A stretch of DNA of 46,090 nucleotides. Source: Clostridia bacterium. Lineage in GTDB: Bacteria; Bacillota; Clostridia; Oscillospirales; Acutalibacteraceae. Made by a program: the position numbers and the translations under genes. Below are positions 5,458 through 17,104 of the stretch, one piece after another; the stretch's first letter is position 1, and every line of letters starts with the position of its first letter. Location of the stretch: positions 1 to 46,090 of the forward strand of contig JAFUHX010000064.1 in NCBI GenBank assembly GCA_017474045.1, read 5' to 3'. The notes under the pieces were generated by a model. The model saw only the letters and a program-made list of their open reading frames with translations, was not told the DNA's origin and made no database searches.

Positions 5458-6894
5458 ATGCTAAAGGATTTTTTTGGAGATAAACCATTTTGGAAAATAT
5501 CTCTTAAACTTGCAATTCCCATTGCCATTCAGAATATGCTGACAAGTTCATTTGCTCTTATTGACACTCTAATGGTCAGCAGATTAGGAGACATTGCTCT
5601 TTCTTCAGTTGGAATGGCAGGTCAATGGAATTGGCTTTTAAACCTAGTCAGCTTCGGACTTTGCTCAGGAATGTCGGTTCTTGCAGCTCAATATTGGGGT
5701 GTTGGCGACAAAAAATCAATGAGAAAGGTTTTTGGAATAGCTTTAATTGCAAGCCTTTTTGTTTCAGTTTTTTTCGCTTCTGTGGGACTACTTATCCCCG
5801 AGAAAATCATATATATTTTTAATAAGGACTCAAATGTTATTGCTTCAGGCAGTCAGTACATGCAGATTGCTTGTCTCGGCTACCCTGCTGTTGCTTTAAA
5901 TATTATTATGTCAGGTTTTTTAAGAAACATTGAAAAGGTTAAGGTTCCGATGTATGTTTCTGCAATAACAACCATTCTTAACGCTTTTATGAATTATTGC
6001 TTCATTTTTGGAAAATTCGGAGCTAAAGAAATGGGAGTCAGCGGTGCTGCTCTTGCAACTTGTCTTTCTGCATGGATGGGACCTGTTCTTCTTTTGATTA
6101 TTTCTATTATTCAAAAAAACGAAATGGTCAAAAATATCAAAGATATTATTTCATTTAATTTAGATTTAATTAAGCTTTTCTTAAAAAGAGCCATGCCGGT
6201 TGTTTTCAATGAATCAGTCTGGGCTTTGGGAATTGTTATTTTAAACACGATATATTCTAATATGGGCTATGAATACTATGCCGCTGTTACAATTCTTAAA
6301 ACGATGACAGATTTATCCTTTGCCTTTTTTGTTGGCTTGGGAAATGCCTGCGTTATTATGGTGGGCAAATCTGTTGGTTCAGGAAAAATTGAAAGAGCAG
6401 TTACCGATTCAAAAAGATTTTCTTTTATTATCCCTGCTATAGCCCTTTTAATAGGTTCTCTTATGGCTATTTTTAAAACACCGCTTATTTCAATTTTTAA
6501 CACCGGTGAGAATATTTCAGAAATAACTCTTTTAACAGCCCAGGCTATAGTTGTCTTCACCGGATTAGAAATGGCTTTGAGAATGATTCCTTATGTTCAG
6601 GTTGTTGGTGTTTTTCGTTCAGGCGGTGACACATTAATCGGAATGATTTGTGATGTTTCAAGCCTTTGGTTTTTGTCGATTCCCGCTGCGGCATTGGCTT
6701 GTTACATCTTTAACCTCCCCTTTTTAGCTGTTTTTGTTTTAGCTTATCTCGCCGAAGACATTCCGAAGGCAATTTTTTGTTTAGTCCATTTTAAATCTTT
6801 GAAATGGTTAAAGCCGGTAACAGATGAAGGAATTGCCGGTAAAAACGAATATATGTTAAAAAACAATAAAACCAATAAAGTAAAATTACATTAA
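5458..6894 (+). CDS. MATE family efflux transporter
   Basis: A 478-residue membrane protein with about twelve hydrophobic segments in two related halves, as in multidrug and toxin extrusion exporters driven by Na+ or H+. The family opening is visible (KISLKLAIPIAIQNMLTSSFALIDTLMVSRLG, then a VGMAGQ loop in the first half), and the second half repeats it (LFLKRAMPVVFNESVWALG). Start: ATG 5458 lies 6 nt after AGGAGG; an upstream in-frame start has no such box. The stop is 13 nt ahead of the GH3 start, with the GH3 Shine-Dalgarno sequence right after the stop, so the two are one operon. Export of a toxic aglycone released by the glucosidase would fit but is only inference. Confidence 0.9.
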   Translation: MLKDFFGDKPFWKISLKLAIPIAIQNMLTSSFALIDTLMVSRLGDIALSSVGMAGQWNWLLNLVSFGLCSGMSVLAAQYWGVGDKKSMRKVFGIALIASLFVSVFFASVGLLIPEKIIYIFNKDSNVIASGSQYMQIACLGYPAVALNIIMSGFLRNIEKVKVPMYVSAITTILNAFMNYCFIFGKFGAKEMGVSGAALATCLSAWMGPVLLLIISIIQKNEMVKNIKDIISFNLDLIKLFLKRAMPVVFNESVWALGIVILNTIYSNMGYEYYAAVTILKTMTDLSFAFFVGLGNACVIMVGKSVGSGKIERAVTDSKRFSFIIPAIALLIGSLMAIFKTPLISIFNTGENISEITLLTAQAIVVFTGLEMALRMIPYVQVVGVFRSGGDTLIGMICDVSSLWFLSIPAAALACYIFNLPFLAVFVLAYLAEDIPKAIFCLVHFKSLKWLKPVTDEGIAGKNEYMLKNNKTNKVKLH

Positions 6895-6907
6895 GGAGGA
6901 AATATTC

Positions 6908-9337
6908 ATGAGTAAACTTAAGAAAAAATTTGACCGCGTTGTTGCTAACATTATCAACAGCGTTGCTCAAACAAGCTTTGTCGGCGACAGCGACGAAAAA
7001 TCTACAGAAGAGATGTCTGCTCTTTGCAGAAAAATGGGTGCAGAAGGAATTGTTATGTTAAAAAACGAAAACAATGTTTTGCCCCTTTCAAAAGACAGAG
7101 TGATTTCAGTTTTCGGAAGAGTTCAAAGAGACTATTTTTATGTTGGATACGGTTCCGGAGGTGATATCAGACCACCCTATAAAGTTAATCTTATTGATGG
7201 CCTTCGTGCTAACGAAAAGATTTCTGTTAACGAAGAGCTTGCAGAAGTTTATGAAAATTGGTGCACAGAAAATCCGGTGAGCGACGGATTCTGGGGGCAT
7301 TGGCCAATGTGTTATGACGAAATGCCCGTAAAGGCAGATTTTGTTAAAGAACAGGCTCAGAAATCCGACACGGCTGTTATTGTTATCGGAAGAGCTGCCG
7401 GTGAAGACAGAGAAAACACACTTACTGAAGGCAGCTATTATCTCACCAAAGAAGAAGAAAACCTGCTAAGCTGTGTCTGCGATGCGTTTTCAAAAGTTGT
7501 TGTTCTTCTCGACTGCGGAAGCATTATGGATATGTCTTGGGTTCAGAAATACGGCGACTCAATTTCATCAATCCTCTATCTTTGGCAAAGCGGAATGGAA
7601 AGCGGAAACGCTGTTGCTGATGTTCTTTCAGGCAATGTTACACCAAGTGGAAAACTTTCAGACACAATAGCTGTTTCTTATGAAGATTATCCCTCTTCAA
7701 AGCTTTTCGGCAACAAAGATTATAATGAATACAGTGAAGATATCTATGTTGGCTACAGATATTTTGAAACCTTTGCAAGAAATAAAGTTCTCTATCCCTT
7801 CGGATTTGGAAAAAGCTATACAGAATTTGAAATCAAAATTGCTCAGACTCGCTTTATTGATGATAAATTTTATGCTTATATCAATGTTAAAAATATCGGC
7901 TCACAGTTTAGTGGAAAAGAAACTCTTCAGATTTATTTAAATGCTCCTCAGGGAAAGCTCGGCAAACCCCTTCGTTCTTTGGTAGCTTTTGAAAAATCAG
8001 ATCTTCTTGCACCCGGTGAAGAACAAAAGCTGAAGCTCTCTTTTGATTTAAAAGATTGCGCTTCTTATGACGACAGCGGAATTACCGGCAACAGATTTTG
8101 CTACGTTCTTGAAAAAGGAAACTATGAAATTTATCTCGGCACAGATGTTCGCTCAGCAAAGCTTATAAGAAGCATAAACGTTCCTGTTTTAAGAGTTGTT
8201 TCTAAGCATGAATCTATTGCGGCACCCGACAGAAAGCACCCCTTTGAAAGACTCAGACCTCAAGTTCTTGAAAACGGAACAATAAAGCCCGTAACAGAAG
8301 CAACACCGCTTAAAACCTATGACCTTAAAGCAAGAATACTTCAAAATCTTCCCAAGGATATTGCACCCACCGGCGACATGGGATATAAGCTCGCTGATGT
8401 TAAAAACGGAACAATCACACTTGAAGAATTTGTTGCACAGCTTTCGTTTGATGAGCTTGAAGCAATTACCCGAGGTGATTACACAATGAACAGCAACCTC
8501 GGTGCAGCAGGAAATGCAGGAGCTATGGCCGGAGTTGTTGAATCACTTCGAGAAAAAGGCGTTCCCGCTGTTATTACCACAGACGGACCTTCCGGAATCA
8601 GACTTTCCGGTAATGGCTCACTTCTCCCAAACGGCGTTGCCCTTGCCTGCTCTTTCAACAAAAAGCTTATTGTTGAACTCTATTCTGAACTTGCAAGAGA
8701 AATGAAGCGCAGAGGCTCTGATATTCTTCTTGCTCCCGGTATGAACATCCACAGAAATCCGCTTTGCGGAAGAAACTTTGAATATTTTTCTGAAGATCCT
8801 CTTCTTTCAGGATACGCCGCAAGCGGTGTTGTTGAGGGCGTTCAATCCCAAGGGCTTTCTGCATGTCCTAAGCATTTTGCCTGCAACAATCAGGAGGTTA
8901 ACAGAACTCATAATGACTCAAGACTTTCAGAAAGAGCACTCAGGGAAATCTATCTTAAAGGGTTTGAATATGTTGTTAAAACAGCCAAACCGCTTAACAT
9001 TATGACTTCATACAACAAAATTAACGGTGTTTGGGGACATTATAACTATGACCTTGTTGCAATGGCTCTGAGAAAGGAATGGGGCTACGAAGGCAATGTT
9101 ATGACTGACTGGTGGATGCGATCCAGTGTTTCACCCGAATTTCCCGGAGTAAAAACTCAGGGCTACCGTGTCAGAGCTCAGGTTGATGTTCTCATGCCCG
9201 GTGGAGAAAGAACAGGCAAAATCCGCAAACCTGACGGAACTCTCAAAGCTTCACATAAAGCTGATAACGGCGTTACTCTTGGTGAAATGCAGCTTTGCGC
9301 GATGCATGTTTTGAAAATGGCAATGATGAAGCTTTAA
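6908..9337 (+). CDS. Circularly permuted family 3 beta-glucosidase
   Basis: An 809-residue GH3 enzyme with its domains in reversed order. The part normally C-terminal comes first: GIVMLKNENNVLPL and the (alpha/beta)6 sandwich with VIVIGRAAGEDREN, up to about residue 270; then LYPFGFGKSYT and a fibronectin-III-like domain (about 310-440); and only then the catalytic (beta/alpha)8 barrel from about 480, with TDGPSGIR, KHFACNNQE (K655, H656), and the nucleophile Asp734 in VMTDWW. This order is established for Ruminococcus albus and Butyrivibrio fibrisolvens beta-glucosidases. No signal peptide is seen, so it should act on cellobiose or other oligoglucosides inside the cell. AAGGAGG precedes ATG 6908 by 7 nt. 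It follows the MATE gene and precedes a secreted glucanase, which suits stepwise beta-glucan breakdown. Confidence 0.93.
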   Translation: MSKLKKKFDRVVANIINSVAQTSFVGDSDEKSTEEMSALCRKMGAEGIVMLKNENNVLPLSKDRVISVFGRVQRDYFYVGYGSGGDIRPPYKVNLIDGLRANEKISVNEELAEVYENWCTENPVSDGFWGHWPMCYDEMPVKADFVKEQAQKSDTAVIVIGRAAGEDRENTLTEGSYYLTKEEENLLSCVCDAFSKVVVLLDCGSIMDMSWVQKYGDSISSILYLWQSGMESGNAVADVLSGNVTPSGKLSDTIAVSYEDYPSSKLFGNKDYNEYSEDIYVGYRYFETFARNKVLYPFGFGKSYTEFEIKIAQTRFIDDKFYAYINVKNIGSQFSGKETLQIYLNAPQGKLGKPLRSLVAFEKSDLLAPGEEQKLKLSFDLKDCASYDDSGITGNRFCYVLEKGNYEIYLGTDVRSAKLIRSINVPVLRVVSKHESIAAPDRKHPFERLRPQVLENGTIKPVTEATPLKTYDLKARILQNLPKDIAPTGDMGYKLADVKNGTITLEEFVAQLSFDELEAITRGDYTMNSNLGAAGNAGAMAGVVESLREKGVPAVITTDGPSGIRLSGNGSLLPNGVALACSFNKKLIVELYSELAREMKRRGSDILLAPGMNIHRNPLCGRNFEYFSEDPLLSGYAASGVVEGVQSQGLSACPKHFACNNQEVNRTHNDSRLSERALREIYLKGFEYVVKTAKPLNIMTSYNKINGVWGHYNYDLVAMALRKEWGYEGNVMTDWWMRSSVSPEFPGVKTQGYRVRAQVDVLMPGGERTGKIRKPDGTLKASHKADNGVTLGEMQLCAMHVLKMAMMKL

Positions 9338-11147: not shown

Positions 11148-11627
11148 TTAGTTATTTCCGCTATCAGCAAATTTATCAATGTCAATCATGCCCTTAGCAA
11201 GCATGAGGAATCGATCGTTATACTCATCAATGGTTGAAGCACCAACATAAAGCATATATTTGATTACTTCTTCGCTGATAATACTCTCGCGATAGCTTGA
11301 GGTGAGTCTGAATAAAACAGAACCGTCTGATAAATCAAAGTCAAACGAACCGTCTGCAAGGCCGTATGTTGCCATGCAGGTAGCTACAGCACCTTCAACA
11401 ATCTTATCCTTAGGAAACTTGACAGGCAGGAAAGAAAACAAAGAAACAATTTTCAGCTTAGTGTTAACTCTTAAAATAAGATCCATAGGCAGATCATCAC
11501 CCCTGGCGCCTGTTTTAACAACAAGCTTTTCTTCGTCTTTCTCATAGTTCCAATTGTCCATATCAAGCGCTGAACAAATGGTTTGATAAATGTTTAAATC
11601 TTCTCTTGAAAAACTAACTTCTGACAT
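11148..11627 (-). CDS. YbjN-like small protein
   Basis: A 159-residue acidic cytosolic protein. It begins with a helix (FSREDLNIYQTICSALD), then alternating strands (NYEKDEEKLVVKTG, LPMDLILRVNTKLKIVSLFSFLP) and ends with FRLTSSYRESIISEEVIKYMLYVGASTIDEYNDRFLMLAKG in pieces. This order, with the late Tyr and Asp positions, is that of the YbjN family, which has a type III secretion chaperone-like fold and is thought to bind partner proteins; no catalytic role is known. ATG 11627 lies 8 nt after GGAGG, so five extra codons upstream are excluded. It is last in the operon, 35 bp after the AAA+ gene, which suggests it serves as adaptor or chaperone for that machine. The family call is moderate, the function inferred. 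Confidence 0.65.
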   Translation of the reverse strand: MSEVSFSREDLNIYQTICSALDMDNWNYEKDEEKLVVKTGARGDDLPMDLILRVNTKLKIVSLFSFLPVKFPKDKIVEGAVATCMATYGLADGSFDFDLSDGSVLFRLTSSYRESIISEEVIKYMLYVGASTIDEYNDRFLMLAKGMIDIDKFADSGNN

Positions 11628-11662
11628 AAAAAATTCCTCCAAATGTTTTTATATATAAACCA

Positions 11663-13714
11663 TCAGATGAAACCTAATGACTTATTTCTTTTTTTGGCGA
11701 GCATACGATTAAACTCTGTTTCTGAAGACGCTGAAATAAAGTCTTCTTTAGTTAAAACCGATGCATCAGTTTTATTAAGCTGAGCTCTCAAAGCAGCCTT
11801 ACCCCATGTTCTTTCAAAAAGGTTTCTTACAAAACGCGCATTGCTGAAATCCTTGCTTGAAAGAACCTCATCCGACAGAGCGTTAAAATAATTGAAAACA
11901 GCGTTTTCAAATTCCTCATCATAAAGGAAGTTCTTTCGCGCCATTCTGAAGAATATTTCTGAAAGCTCCTCTCTTGTATAATTCGGGAATTCGATAATAT
12001 AAGGCATACGGCTTTCAAGACCGGGATTAGCCTTCATAAGATTACTCATTTCATCGCTGTAGCCAGCCATTATAACAACAAGATCTTTTCTGTGGTTTTC
12101 CATTTGCGCAATCAAGGTTTCAATAGCCTCAACTCCGTAGTCGCCACCTCTGAAAGAAGAATTTGCACCTTTAAACAAAGTATAAGCTTCATCAATAAAC
12201 AAAACTGAGCCATAGGCGTCACGACAGATCGCTGCTGTTTTCGGGGCTGTTGAACCAACATATTCACCACATAACTCTCTGGCAAAATGCTCATGGAAGT
12301 TTCCGTTTCTCAAAACGCCCTTTTCTTTAAGAATTTTGCCGATTATTCTGGCAACAGTTGTTTTGCCCGTTCCGGGATTTCCAACAAAACGCATATGAAT
12401 GCAGGGGCTTCCAAGGTTAGCATTATTTCTTGAGCCAAGTATCTGAGCTACAATTTCTTCAACACGATCTTTGATTTTATCCATACCAACATACTCATCA
12501 AGAGAACGAAGACCTTCATAGCTCTCTTCAATATCAGAAATAAGAGGCAAAATATCGGCTTTTTTTATAAGACAATCTTCAGTTTCTTTTTCAGCATCTG
12601 ACAGTTGCTTATAATAAATCATTTGTCTTGCGATTTTCTTAACAGTATTTATTCCATAGAAGCGTCCGTCATTTCGTTCGCGATTCATTATTAAAGAAAA
12701 GAGCGAAACCGTTTCTTCATCAAGAGCATAGCCACGCTCTTCGATAAATCTGACACAGCACTCAGTCAGCTCATCATTACCGAGGGGAACAAAAGAAACA
12801 TCCTTAACTGTCAAAACGTCACTTATTGCATCCTTTATCTGCAAGAGTGTTTCTTTTTCAACAAAGGGCACCCTGAAAATAAAGATGCTGTCTCCGCAGC
12901 AATCTTCAATAAGATTGAGAATAATTTTAAATAAATTATCGTTAAGCTTTGTGAGCCATTCACTTAAGTCAACACAAAAAACCTTCTGAGTTTTTCTGAA
13001 AAGCTTTGTTAAATCATAAAGAAAAGATTCATTAGATCTTTGTGTATCCGTAGGACATTGAAGCCTGATTTCTTGAACTGCGCTTTCAATAACCACACAA
13101 TCAAAAAGTCCAAGCTGGTTAAGGTGTTTAGCAAACAAATCAAGATAAGTTGAAAGTCCGCAACCATCATTGATTGAAAAAAGATAGCATTGTTTTGCAA
13201 AGATATCTTCTGTTTTGTGTTTTATCATCGCCGGCGCAATTTTTTCACATTCTGAAATCAACGCCTTAAACTCTTCTGCGCCAACAAGGCTACTGATTTT
13301 TTCGCCGACATTTTCTTCAGGTTCAGCTTCATCATCGGTTTCTGATGAACTGATTTGTTTACAGCATGATGGTTTTTCATCTGAAGCTTTTTTGTCGCTT
13401 ACCTTTTCTTCGTCAGTTTTTTTATCATCTTCAAAATTACGTTCAACCACCTCAAAATCAACAACATTCTTAAAAACTGTAACTTTCATCTTTTCTTTTA
13501 AGATTTGTTTTATCTGTTTTGCAAGTTGAGTTAAGTTTTTTGAGTCGCCTTTAACTGTAACAATGCACATAGAAAGTGATTGACCGACTATTTCATAATC
13601 TTCAACTTCCTCACGGATAAAGCTAACGAGCTGTGCAACGGGAAGAATTGAATTTTCTCTGTTTGATAAAAGCCATGTGGGGTTAAACCTTACAATAAGT
13701 ACCTTTTTTAACAT
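11663..13714 (-). CDS. AAA+ ATPase, SpoVK/CbbX-type, with a degenerate first module
   Basis: A 683-residue soluble protein. Residues 1-90 form a small alpha/beta domain; 95-137 is a highly charged, flexible linker. Residues about 140-375 look like a decayed AAA+ module: FSINDGCGLSTYL (179-191) sits where a P-loop would be but lacks GKT, and KVFCVDLSEWL (244-254) resembles a Walker B without the Glu. Residues about 400-670 are an intact SpoVK/CbbX-like AAA+: Walker A GNPGTGKT (445-452), Walker B VLFIDEA (504-510), Arg finger in GLESRMP (R569) and sensor 2 in NARFVRN. CbbX proteins remodel Rubisco; SpoVK acts in sporulation; neither role is implied. An AAGGAGA box precedes ATG 13714. It lies 27 bp after the protease-fusion gene, so the two products probably work together. 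Confidence 0.8.
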   Translation of the reverse strand: MLKKVLIVRFNPTWLLSNRENSILPVAQLVSFIREEVEDYEIVGQSLSMCIVTVKGDSKNLTQLAKQIKQILKEKMKVTVFKNVVDFEVVERNFEDDKKTDEEKVSDKKASDEKPSCCKQISSSETDDEAEPEENVGEKISSLVGAEEFKALISECEKIAPAMIKHKTEDIFAKQCYLFSINDGCGLSTYLDLFAKHLNQLGLFDCVVIESAVQEIRLQCPTDTQRSNESFLYDLTKLFRKTQKVFCVDLSEWLTKLNDNLFKIILNLIEDCCGDSIFIFRVPFVEKETLLQIKDAISDVLTVKDVSFVPLGNDELTECCVRFIEERGYALDEETVSLFSLIMNRERNDGRFYGINTVKKIARQMIYYKQLSDAEKETEDCLIKKADILPLISDIEESYEGLRSLDEYVGMDKIKDRVEEIVAQILGSRNNANLGSPCIHMRFVGNPGTGKTTVARIIGKILKEKGVLRNGNFHEHFARELCGEYVGSTAPKTAAICRDAYGSVLFIDEAYTLFKGANSSFRGGDYGVEAIETLIAQMENHRKDLVVIMAGYSDEMSNLMKANPGLESRMPYIIEFPNYTREELSEIFFRMARKNFLYDEEFENAVFNYFNALSDEVLSSKDFSNARFVRNLFERTWGKAALRAQLNKTDASVLTKEDFISASSETEFNRMLAKKRNKSLGFI

Positions 13715-13741: not shown

Positions 13742-16700
13742 TTAAGAATTAAAGATAGCCTTAATGTCATCAGCAGTCAGATGATTTTTTGAAACAAGCT
13801 GATTGACCATTTTTTCAAAAATGTCCATCTTTCCTTTTATAGTTTCAATTGTAGCTTTCAGACTCTGATTAAGAATTTCATTAACTCTTTCTCTGATTTT
13901 TAGCTGAATCTCACCTGAAGCAGCAGCCTTATTAATAACGCCCATTCCCATCTCATTATCCATTGAATAGTCGCAAATGAGCATTTCAGCCAAATCAGTT
14001 GCTCTTCTGAGGTCTGAAGACGGACCTGTTGTTAAGCCGTCTTCTTCACCGTAGCAGATAAGCTCAGCTGCTCTTCCGCCAAGAAGAATTGAAATTTCCG
14101 AAAGAAGCTCTTCTTTGGTGTAACTGCCGGAATTTTTTCCTCTTTCATCAAGCATATAGCCTCCGAAGTTTCCTCTTGAAACAACAGTAACATGAGTCGG
14201 AATATTTCCACGGCACCAGCTGACCAGTGCGTGTCCGGCTTCATGGCGTGCCGTTCTTAAAACAGCGTCACTATCCCAGACTTTCTTTTCTCCGTAATAA
14301 AACGCTTCATAGGCTTCAGACAAAACATCATAAGTCAGCTCGTTGAGCTTCGAACGATAAAGATTTCTCAAAGCAAATTCAAGAATTGTTTCAATATCAG
14401 CAAGACTCTTTCCTGTTGTTCTGACAGAAAAGCTTTCAATTTCGCTTTCAGACAAAGCGCTGAAAGGAATTTCTGAAAGCTTAAGCTTAAGGTAGCTGAT
14501 TCTTTCTTCTTTGTTAGGAAGGTCAACATAGATTCTTCTGTCAAACCTTCTGACAAGAGCAGGATCAAGACTTGTGGCACTTGATTGATCAATATCATAG
14601 TTTGTTGCGGCAAGAACAAAAACAGGTTTCCTTAAATCTGTTTTGAAACCATCCATTTCATTAAGAAGAGCATTCAGAATATCCATGCTTTTATTACCGC
14701 CGTCACTTCCGTCCCGAAGCTTTCCGATTACTTCAATTTCATCAATAAAAATTATGGAAGGAGCATATTTTCTTGCTGTTTTAAAAAGATTTCTGACTTC
14801 TTCGGGACCCTGACCAACAACAGACTTCAGAAATTCGTTTGCCTGAACAGCAATGAAGGTCGTGTCTGATTCTGTTGCCATTGCTTTGGCAAGCATTGTT
14901 TTACCCGTACCCGGAGGTCCATATAACAAAACGCCTTTAGGAGCTCTCAAACTTTTTGAAACAAAGCCTTTGGGATCCTTGAGATAATCAATAAAATAGC
15001 AAAGCTCTTCCTTTGCATCTTCTGCACCGATTACCTGTTCCATTTTAACATTTGGCTTCGATGTTAAATCAAGTAACTTATTTTTATCTTCGGTATCAGG
15101 AGCAACACACAAGCGAAGAGAATAAAATTCAACAACAGCCTCACTGCCATCATCGCTAATTCTCTGAGCTGTTTCATAAGTCAGAATTTTGTTGGCCTTG
15201 CCAAGTGAAATAATCGCAGATTGCTGATGAAGAATTTCACAAAGCTCAAGAAGTTTTTTTCTGTTATCGGCTGAATTATCAGAAAGAACAAAAATATCCT
15301 GAGCTCCCGACTGAATAAAGGAAACCTTCTCTTCTTCAGTAATCTTACATTCATTTTTTCCAATTATGTAAACCGGAAGATCTGATGCATAGGTCTGAAT
15401 ATAGGAAAACACCTCTGAAGCCTCTGAAACAATGTCAGACATATTAAGAACCTTATTGCAGCTGTTGCAACCGCAGGAATAATCACACAAAACAAAGTCA
15501 ATATCATCTGAAATGATTTTATTCTTTGCTTTTTCAGCATCAGATATACAAATGAACTCAACATTGTCTATACCCAAACCATTAAACAACCCGGAAACAG
15601 TTTCATCAGCAAAAACAAGAACCTTATAGTTACGCTTATTATAATAAAGGTCTGTAATTTCATTATTTTCAGGAACACTGACTTTAAAAGTAATTTTCTT
15701 TAATCTACCAATACCCTTATCATGAGAATTATTGCTTAACAATCTCAAAAGCTCAAAAAGTTCGTTGTTAAAGGTTGAAATAGCCTTGCTTTTTATGGTT
15801 CTTGCATCACAGCCTGCGCCTTCAGAAAGCAGAATTGTTGAAAAAACATTGTTATCAGTTTCAACAGTAACTTTCGTTTTGTTAGAAAACATTTTTGAAT
15901 ATCTGTTAAATTCCTTCTGAGCAATTTTTCTCAATGAATCAGCAGAAATTCTGTTGAACATTACAACATTGCCCGTTGCGAAACGAGAGCAGATTGCTGC
16001 AGGGAAATATGGTTCTGTTGAGTCAGGCTTTGTATCAGATTGAAGTGCTTTAAGAAGCTCTTTTCTTGAAACAGATGAAAGATTAACAGCGTCAGTTGAG
16101 TCATAGAAGTTTTTACCGGCATTGGTTGTAAAGAAAATGATTGCATTTTCAAAGGAAACCTCTTCATCAGTAAAGCTGTCTCTTAATCTTCCGACGTCAA
16201 GAATCTGCAAAAACAAATGAATTATGTTTAAATGAGCCTTTTCAATTTCGTCAAATAAAATTACGCAATTCGGATTTTCAGCAACATAAGATGTTACATT
16301 ACCGGCTTTGCCGTTTTTATAAACCTTATCAGAACCGATAAACTCAAGGCTGGCTTCTTTATCAGAATATTCACTCATATCAAAGCGGGCAAAAGGACGC
16401 TCAAGAAGATCAGCAGCGCATTGAGAGAGATAGGTTTTTCCCGTTCCCGGAGGGCCGGCAAAAAGAAAGGTTGCCATCGGCTTCTGAGTTTTGTTGTTAT
16501 AAATTTTATTCATTTCAGCCTGAAAATACCCTGAAATGAAGGTTGAAACAGCAACATCTTGTCCGTATATTTTCTTTAAAAGTTCACTTTGATAGCCTTT
16601 AACCTTTTTAACAAGAGCCTCAACCTGTTTAATTGAGCTTGAGTTGAATTCACTCATCATATCATAAGAAGCCGCTGAATCATTTTTTTCATGAGAATAG

Positions 16701-17104
16701 ATGTTTGCAGAAACCTCTTTGAAAAAAGAGGTTGGCTTGTCATTAACATAATATTCAACAAATGAAAAAACATTTGTGTTTTGTTGATTTTTGTTTTCAA
16801 GCCACGCATTAAAATCAATCATATATAACTGATATGAGAATTCAGCAAACTCATCATTATTTTTCGGAAGATTGGAAATCTTAGCTAAAAATTTATGCTT
16901 TAAATTATAGATGTTGAATTTAGAAGAAAGATAAGACTTAATTTTTATAGTCTCTTCGCCAAAAAATTCAGCAACATCATCGTCAATTACAGCTTTCAAC
17001 ACTGTTGCAAAAAAAATGTCTTCGGTCATATAATTAAAACCAAGCTCATTTTTAAATTTTAGAGCCTCTTTTTCTGTATAAACGAAAAAAGCACTTTTTT
17101 TCAT
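13742..17104 (-). CDS. Clp-type AAA+ / receiver-like / FtsH-like AAA+ M41 protease fusion
   Basis: An 1120-residue protein with no transmembrane segment. Residues 1-150 resemble a Clp N-terminal repeat domain. Residues 175-450 are a Clp-type AAA+: Walker A GPPGTGKT (217-224), Walker B with the Clp signature LFDEIEKAH (283-291), sensor 1 TTNAG, Arg R374, and a Tyr (Y262) at the pore-loop position. Residues 490-625 are receiver-like (DFVLCDYS with D541) but lack the usual Lys, and contain C540, C544, C546 and C549. Residues 685-930 are an FtsH-type AAA+ (GPPGTGKT 729-736, FIDEIE 786-791, LDPALVRRFDRR). Residues 940-1115 are an M41 zinc protease: HEAGH (954-958) and the third ligand D1031 in TTGPSSD. 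FtsH is normally a membrane protease; here its membrane part is replaced by another unfoldase. GGAGG precedes the ATG. It heads the three-gene AAA+ set, 28 bp after the U32 gene. Confidence 0.9.
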   Translation of the reverse strand: MKKSAFFVYTEKEALKFKNELGFNYMTEDIFFATVLKAVIDDDVAEFFGEETIKIKSYLSSKFNIYNLKHKFLAKISNLPKNNDEFAEFSYQLYMIDFNAWLENKNQQNTNVFSFVEYYVNDKPTSFFKEVSANIYSHEKNDSAASYDMMSEFNSSSIKQVEALVKKVKGYQSELLKKIYGQDVAVSTFISGYFQAEMNKIYNNKTQKPMATFLFAGPPGTGKTYLSQCAADLLERPFARFDMSEYSDKEASLEFIGSDKVYKNGKAGNVTSYVAENPNCVILFDEIEKAHLNIIHLFLQILDVGRLRDSFTDEEVSFENAIIFFTTNAGKNFYDSTDAVNLSSVSRKELLKALQSDTKPDSTEPYFPAAICSRFATGNVVMFNRISADSLRKIAQKEFNRYSKMFSNKTKVTVETDNNVFSTILLSEGAGCDARTIKSKAISTFNNELFELLRLLSNNSHDKGIGRLKKITFKVSVPENNEITDLYYNKRNYKVLVFADETVSGLFNGLGIDNVEFICISDAEKAKNKIISDDIDFVLCDYSCGCNSCNKVLNMSDIVSEASEVFSYIQTYASDLPVYIIGKNECKITEEEKVSFIQSGAQDIFVLSDNSADNRKKLLELCEILHQQSAIISLGKANKILTYETAQRISDDGSEAVVEFYSLRLCVAPDTEDKNKLLDLTSKPNVKMEQVIGAEDAKEELCYFIDYLKDPKGFVSKSLRAPKGVLLYGPPGTGKTMLAKAMATESDTTFIAVQANEFLKSVVGQGPEEVRNLFKTARKYAPSIIFIDEIEVIGKLRDGSDGGNKSMDILNALLNEMDGFKTDLRKPVFVLAATNYDIDQSSATSLDPALVRRFDRRIYVDLPNKEERISYLKLKLSEIPFSALSESEIESFSVRTTGKSLADIETILEFALRNLYRSKLNELTYDVLSEAYEAFYYGEKKVWDSDAVLRTARHEAGHALVSWCRGNIPTHVTVVSRGNFGGYMLDERGKNSGSYTKEELLSEISILLGGRAAELICYGEEDGLTTGPSSDLRRATDLAEMLICDYSMDNEMGMGVINKAAASGEIQLKIRERVNEILNQSLKATIETIKGKMDIFEKMVNQLVSKNHLTADDIKAIFNS

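Follow-up and report, generated by a model that had tools for sequence, protein, structure and literature searches.

The contig JAFUHX010000064.1 of a Clostridia bacterium from the Acutalibacteraceae (assembly GCA_017474045.1), of which positions 1 to 46,090, here called the window, were analysed, contains an open reading frame of 1120 amino acids at 13742..17104 on the minus strand (start 17104, end 13742). The protein, here called the fusion, combines a Clp-type AAA+ module, a receiver-like domain, an FtsH-type AAA+ module and an M41 zinc protease in one chain. The start codon, an ATG at 17104, is preceded by GGAGGAG, a good ribosome-binding site, while the plus-strand reading of 13742..17104 is full of stops. 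Another 18 genomes encode 19 fused homologues, so that the set comprises 20 fusions in 19 genomes, over which the conservation of residues was counted. The features of the gene are the following:

13742..17104, minus strand: the whole fusion gene, Clp-type AAA+ / receiver-like / FtsH-type AAA+ / M41 protease
16625..17104, minus strand: residues 1-160, N-terminal region, mostly helical and variable, with only a weak Clp_N-like look (low model confidence)
15785..16612, minus strand: residues 165-440, Clp/Hsp100-type AAA+ ring (AAA_2; ClpA D2-like), from Pfam, NCBIfam and the tree
15185..15634, minus strand: residues 491-640, receiver-like (CheY-fold) domain between both rings, from hhalign, a PDB profile search and the model
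15482..15484, minus strand: Asp541, at the position of the phospho-acceptor Asp in receivers, the same in all 20 fusions
14297..15058, minus strand: residues 683-936, FtsH-type AAA+ ring, from Pfam, the NCBIfam FtsH family and the tree
13748..14272, minus strand: residues 945-1119, M41 zinc protease, from Pfam Peptidase_M41
14231..14245, minus strand: HEAGH at residues 954-958, the motif for zinc binding and catalysis (HExGH in all 20 fusions)
14012..14014, minus strand: Asp1031, by analogy the third ligand of the zinc, present in all 20 fusions

The initial annotation had read two AAA+ motors of different types and an M41 site in this chain, without mention of the strand, the receiver-like domain, the altered pore loops or the neighbouring genes. 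The two motors and the protease are borne out by Pfam, with AAA_2 at residues 208-340 (8.5e-37), AAA at 725-861 (3.9e-48) and Peptidase_M41 at 949-1117 (2.1e-29), all above the curated cut-offs. The fourth domain listed there, Clp_N, was not recovered: Pfam gave no match in the window copy or in a set of six members, and hhalign of the N-terminus against three Clp_N-type N-termini gave 3.9%. The NCBIfam ClpA model aligns with residues 150-425 (model positions 432-690, 1.8e-49) at 168.6 bits, far below its 993-bit cut-off, and the NCBIfam FtsH model with residues 674-1114 at 325.4 bits, far below the 600-bit equivalog cut-off. The first ring has the hallmarks of the Clp/Hsp100 family, namely an AAA_2 module with Walker A and B, sensor 1 and a sensor 2 arginine, and the second half has those of FtsH, an AAA module followed by an M41 domain with HExxH and a distal Asp ligand. 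None of the PADLOC models matched the fusion over its full length; the matches were partial and to AAA regions, for example IetA at 669-933 (9e-44). The top Foldseek matches of the full-length AlphaFold model were FtsH-type structures, with a TM-score by target of about 0.5, which is a modest global superposition. The fusion is a real, conserved and rare protease architecture, and the architecture and the biochemical class that it indicates are well supported at the level of sequence.

The P-loops of the window fusion read GPPGTGKT at 217-224 and 729-736, and the Walker B motifs lie at 283-288 and 785-789, that of the first ring being FDEIEKAH. The Walker, sensor/arginine, HEAGH and Asp1031 residues are all intact, as the initial annotation had stated, and the catalytic lysines, glutamates and arginines, the HExxH and Asp1031 are kept in 20 of 20 fusions, one of which (L057) is cut within the ring-1 Walker A. 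By analogy, Asp1031 would be the third zinc ligand. The suggested absence of a transmembrane segment was also confirmed: none was found in the 20 fusions (19-residue Kyte-Doolittle maximum 1.08-1.48, L057 being without its N-terminus), and the window copy reaches 1.23 versus 2.32-2.54 in three ordinary FtsH proteins, one from its own genome and two from the same genus. The ClpP-docking loop motif after sensor 1, [LIVMPC]G[FLV] (IGL/IGF-type), is present in 0 of 20 fusions, and nearly the same pattern occurs in 9 of 11 ordinary Clp proteins from the own and related genomes; the own genome retains ClpP. With neither a membrane segment nor a ClpP-docking motif, the protease should act in cis and in the cytosol.

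The domain between the rings aligned with 13 of the 16 receivers of the own genome at 88% in hhalign (E 3.1e-6), while eight decoy comparisons gave at most 0.8%. A PDB profile search with this domain matched response regulators, the best match being a receiver (E 0.0017), and Pfam Response_reg was found in two of nine members' middle domains (best 0.0019). In the AlphaFold model, strands and helices alternate over residues 493-636 as in CheY, at moderate confidence. Asp541 is placed at the end of strand 3, and in most members it is followed by an insert with an acidic ED motif.

Full-length relatives of the fusion were identified in 6 of 58 other related genomes, one of which contains two. In genome G037, there are two fusions (L028, L030), which belong to different subclades. 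A profile of the middle domain found 13 of 394 genomes of the order, and a class-wide sample of 391 genomes contained two further clear cases besides the own genome (G744, and G770 with a blastp confirmation over 955 residues) as well as three marginal middle-domain matches (L047-L049, E 5e-4 to 8e-4). One further fusion (L001) is encoded by a named Lachnospiraceae metagenome-assembled genome. The family is rare and patchy, and the survey that the initial annotation had proposed brings the count of this architecture, window copy included, to 20 proteins in 19 genomes. Of these, L057 is truncated by a contig end, the N-terminus is short in L028, L058 and L060, and L056 is nearly identical to L057.

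In the phylogenies, the FtsH halves form one clade (100/100), separate from 14 ordinary FtsH proteins, and the Clp halves form one clade (100/100), separate from 10 viral Clp modules. Both trees contain identical subclades of 13, 5 and 2 members, and one old fusion event is the simplest account. The subclades cut across families (f1, f3 and f20 are each represented in two subclades), and since they do not follow the families, horizontal transfer of the fusion is suggested. The subclade C fusions (L058, 8497-11385; L060, 7771-10659) have a shorter N-terminus and other neighbours, namely a shared small protein of about 100 amino acids, and neither YbjN nor RyR was found beside them. A scan of viruses with a nine-protein alignment as the query gave, among the best 80 loci, no match that extended over both the Clp ring and the M41 end. 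The matches covered one AAA region or both, as in L070, L071, L076, L093 and L140, which were taken for two-ring Clp proteins, and a single one was of the FtsH type (L061, 671-1119). Eighty percent of the fusion was covered by 0 of 3940 matching plasmid records and by 0 of 270 phages.

Judged by the features that define the two groups, the fusion is neither an FtsH nor a Clp unfoldase, though it should work like both. It resembles the FtsH/M41 family, including mitochondrial AFG3L2 and YME1, in the order of AAA and M41 and in the HExGH with a third Asp, but differs in having no membrane segment, in the extra Clp-type ring and receiver-like domain in front, and in that its FtsH halves form a separate clade; the own genome also encodes an ordinary FtsH. 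Similar to the Clp/Hsp100 proteins (ClpA, ClpC, ClpK, ClpG), it contains an AAA_2 module with an FDEIEKAH Walker B, but it has one Clp ring, an altered pore loop, no ClpP-docking motif and a protease in cis. The plasmid genes clpK and ftsH, which have a role in heat tolerance, also encode a Clp disaggregase and an FtsH close together; those are separate genes, and we know of no receiver-like domain in them.

A 2022 review calls the FtsH family membrane-anchored, and the words “fused” and “two AAA” do not occur in it (PMC9020784). The FtsH-containing MoxR-vWA ternary conflict systems have two FtsH-type AAA modules, the first of which is inactive (eLife 2020, PMC7159879). They are similar to the fusion in having two AAA modules per protein, the second of the FtsH type, and a predicted conflict setting. 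The first ring of the fusion is instead Clp-type, AAA_2/ClpA-like, with intact Walker motifs, and its loci carry YbjN, RyR, CARF and TIR genes; no MoxR or vWA partner was seen among 45 Pfam-scanned neighbours, a part of the open reading frames of the 20 loci. A receiver-type domain is also tied to an AAA+ protease in RssB-ClpXP, and a sigma-like gene lies near some fusion loci; RssB is a separate adaptor, whereas in the fusion the domain is part of the chain and sits between the two rings. The neighbours of the fusion include proteins of the CARF nuclease (Card1/Can2), TIR and RyR nucleotide-signal kinds, which are distinct from the protease itself. In a 2026 preprint, phage proteins with a RyR domain are reported to break down cyclic ADP-ribose signals or to sequester them (PMC13232231), which lends support to an interpretation of the RyR and TIR neighbours as signal proteins. 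The initial annotation knew of no described system with this layout, and none was found in the open-access papers searched, with subscription papers outside that search.

The fusion gene is followed by two probable operon partners, and a U32-type gene lies 28 bases upstream on the same strand:

11663..13714, minus strand: next gene, a SpoVK/CbbX-type AAA+ protein of 683 amino acids, probable operon partner (27-base gap)
11148..11642, minus strand: third gene, a YbjN-like protein of 164 amino acids, probable operon partner (20-base gap)

The 683-residue protein matches NCBIfam spore_V_K (3.2e-72), yet below the cut-off, and a homologue with 47% identity is present in L152; no full-length relative was found beside the other 19 fusions. 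The first half of this protein is AAA-like and, by eye, seemingly without a P-loop. The YbjN-like protein has no Pfam match itself and was assigned through its homologues (blastp and profile), of which those matching Pfam YbjN include L027, L001, L029 and L052. YbjN-like proteins lie beside the fusion in 11 of 20 loci, 10 of which come from the list of open reading frames and served as profile seeds, and one (L056) from a six-frame search only (2e-25); the six-frame control on 80 viral loci gave one weak match (0.019).

Effector-type genes (CARF nuclease, TrkA-RyR, RyR, TIR) are located within 6.5 kb of the fusion in 9 of 20 loci. TrkA-RyR is present in five of the loci, CARF-PD-(D/E)xK nuclease in three, a lone RyR in two and TIR in two, and 8 of the 13 effector-type genes are on the same strand at 3-107 bases from the fusion. 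The Pfam TIR protein of L001, at 5.6 kb, was missed by the TIR profile. In L026, the fusion has a TrkA-RyR gene on either side (6220-8199 and 11635-13431); both share its strand, and the gaps measure 45 and 17 bases. Of the three CARF proteins, two were compared with PADLOC models, and both match CARF4 (4.6e-33 and 2.8e-30); the CARF family also matches Can2 (2e-4). In the TrkA-RyR family, the RyR end gave matches to ryanodine-receptor structures (2e-8), the TrkA_N part has one Pfam match (1.1e-5), and the membrane part was recognised by eye from hydrophobic N-termini. Three of the 20 loci (L028, L053, L059) have sigma-like and anti-sigma-like genes ahead of the fusion. At these sites (L053, 6525-7644; L028, 495-1930; L059, 339-1338), a divergent sigma-like gene is followed by a small H-x3-C-x2-C anti-sigma-like protein.

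The same kinds of genes are found together at loci without the fusion. L152 has sigma-like, anti-sigma-like, SpoVK-like and YbjN-like genes in an operon, L153 has sigma-like, CARF, TrkA-RyR and TIR genes, and L151 and L155 have CARF, RyR and two TrkA-RyR genes. L148, about 16 kb from a fusion on the same contig, contains sigma-like, anti-sigma-like and TrkA-RyR genes. The parts recur in exchangeable combinations and form one modular set. Across genomes, the three samples of 394 (fusion, TrkA-RyR, restriction) were taken as the same genomes, since their size and handles agree. TrkA-RyR was present in 31 of the 394, that is in 12 of 13 fusion-bearing genomes versus 19 of 381 others (p 7e-14), or 9 of 10 versus 19 of 381 without the three profile-seed genomes (p 1e-10). 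The control, HSDR_N of type I restriction, showed no link (4 of 13 versus 145 of 381, p 0.77), and with this negative result, defence-rich genomes were rejected as a confounder. CARF relatives were found in 7 fusion genomes among 36 positives of 295, which, if all 13 fusion-bearing genomes are counted as part of that sample, bounds their co-occurrence at 7 of 13 versus 29 of 282 (p 2e-4, or p 0.004 when the seeds are left out). These links to nucleotide-signal proteins are statistically strong and, as to function, suggestive.

As to the biological role, our hypothesis is that the fusion is a soluble two-ring AAA+ zinc protease with a receiver-like switch, serving a nucleotide-signal stress/defence module, and we consider this combination probable. 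The protease would be soluble and probably hexameric, with two stacked motors in one chain, in which the Clp-type and FtsH-type rings would unfold a substrate and thread it, in this order, into the chamber of the M41 zinc protease. The Clp ring would no longer dock ClpP, a function that may have been lost because the protease is in cis. The receiver-like domain may be a switch or a docking site that couples a signal to ring engagement, and a candidate for the adaptor or sensor is the YbjN-like neighbour. In the cell, the fusion would be the regulated-proteolysis arm of a modular stress/defence set together with CARF nucleases, TrkA-RyR, RyR and TIR, which may in some loci include the sigma/anti-sigma-like pair.

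Several observations weigh against this proposal. The full-length AlphaFold model is moderate (pLDDT 71, pTM 0.51), and that of the isolated middle domain has a pLDDT of 47. The window's own middle domain gave no Pfam receiver match. Working receivers use an acidic pair, a Thr and a Lys as functional residues; in the fusions, the positions of the acidic pair, of the Thr/Ser after strand 4 and of the Lys after strand 5 are not conserved. The domain is for this reason best described as receiver-like and perhaps not phosphorylated. Subclade A, with 13 members, is less firm in both trees (94/89 and 89/91). In the window, no effector gene adjoins the fusion, and in the own genome, the TrkA-RyR and CARF genes are on other contigs, the TrkA-RyR gene beside metabolic genes. 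No module partner was found within 6.5 kb in L054, L057, L058 and L060, of which the L054 and L057 contigs are short. The p-values of the co-occurrence ignore phylogeny; the 13 fusion genomes span nine families. Finally, the GYVG of pore loop 1 is present in the Clp ring of 0 of 20 fusions versus 10 of 11 ordinary Clp proteins (the GFVG of L054 sits in the N-terminal region and not in the ring-1 pore loop), this loop is shortened in subclade B, and the pore residue of the FtsH ring is non-aromatic or missing in 6 of 20 members, with a gap in L059. An aromatic residue is found there in 14 of 20, while the window copy has SVVG, with Val at this position. Threading by the first ring is uncertain due to the absence of GYVG and the shortened loop. 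That the protein should be active, as the initial annotation stated, is an inference, given that the Clp ring lacks GYVG and that the FtsH pore loop of this copy has Val.

The pore-loop changes of the Clp ring, combined with intact Walker and sensor residues, agree with a serious rival, according to which the Clp-type ring assembles or regulates rather than pulls. It would be an ATP-controlled platform that replaces the membrane anchor, and the FtsH ring alone would translocate the substrate, an arrangement that is compatible with the proposed role of the system. In the related YME1L, it is reportedly the membrane anchor that brings about hexamerisation (PMC5095350), but isolated soluble FtsH domains still hexamerise according to the review (PMC9020784), and a Tyr near the pore-loop position is kept in most subclade A proteins. 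We consider such a platform somewhat unlikely, and retain the threading protease with two active rings as the preferred reading.

The sigma/anti-sigma-like pairs that precede the fusion at three loci could point to a transcriptional function, which would be a special case of the proposed role: under the control of a signal, the protease would destroy the anti-sigma-like protein, or a sigma factor would be delivered, and the receiver-like domain would take the part of RssB within the chain. Sigma-S is delivered to ClpXP by RssB, which belongs to the atypical response regulators (PMC7226468). Consistently, the pair is found again beside TrkA-RyR in L148 and beside the SpoVK-YbjN genes in L152, and the sigma-like gene recurs with CARF and TrkA-RyR in L153. 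However, only 5 of 18 fusion-bearing genomes, including three seeds, have the sigma-like gene, versus 1 of 40 others, and it was not found in the own genome; it was rejected as a general partner on these counts, which make it a weak candidate. Its identity comes from a sub-threshold Pfam match of one copy (0.00066) and a zinc-finger-like motif seen by eye, and the sigma-like protein had no PDB match. A transcriptional function is in our judgement unlikely, and the wider role in a nucleotide-signal module is preferred.

According to another alternative, the fusion is a general stress protease that dissolves and degrades damaged proteins, like the plasmid clpK and ftsH, and the signalling and nuclease genes are mere neighbours in the same islands. 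Its patchy distribution fits mobile islands, and annotated clpK and ftsH genes fell under one match in several of the plasmid records listed. The short distances of 8 of 13 effector-type neighbours and the exchangeable combinations of the parts speak against it, as does the co-occurrence of TrkA-RyR even where it is not adjacent, in contrast to the restriction control, and the 80% coverage that none of the matching plasmid records reached. This alternative appears distinctly unlikely. An assembly or frameshift artefact joining two adjacent genes, which has the rarity of the layout and nothing else in its favour, can practically be ruled out by the 20 fused proteins in 19 genomes, none of them split at this point, five of them on contigs of at least 100 kb, and with both halves in the same subclades.

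AAA+ proteases are classified by their motor modules, one or two in number, and a fixed protease partner. With motors of the Clp type and the FtsH type arranged in series and a zinc protease in cis, the fusion would make it possible to study directly how unlike motors share a substrate and how a receiver-like domain gates them. The recurrent link to RyR, CARF and TIR points to a testable, apparently undescribed signalling/defence set with regulated proteolysis at its core. We propose only tentatively, as possible rather than probable, that the fusion represents a new class of AAA+ proteases with two unlike rings, a zinc protease and a pseudo-receiver switch in a single soluble chain, which would be the proteolytic arm of an undescribed modular defence network. 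In this network, nucleotide signals would be made or read by the CARF, TrkA-RyR, RyR and TIR proteins, and the substrate would be brought in by the YbjN-like proteins.

Other large proteins were observed at these loci. Giant proteins with a transglutaminase-like or metallopeptidase-like end are encoded near TrkA-RyR genes in L148 (10957-16428, 1823 amino acids) and L143 (12517-16557, 1346 amino acids). Proteins with TIR and leucine-rich repeats occur near these loci in L055 (16029-18077, by Pfam) and L142 (12282-14003, by homology), and a TIR protein in L146 (10133-13693) has weak beta-propeller-like matches.

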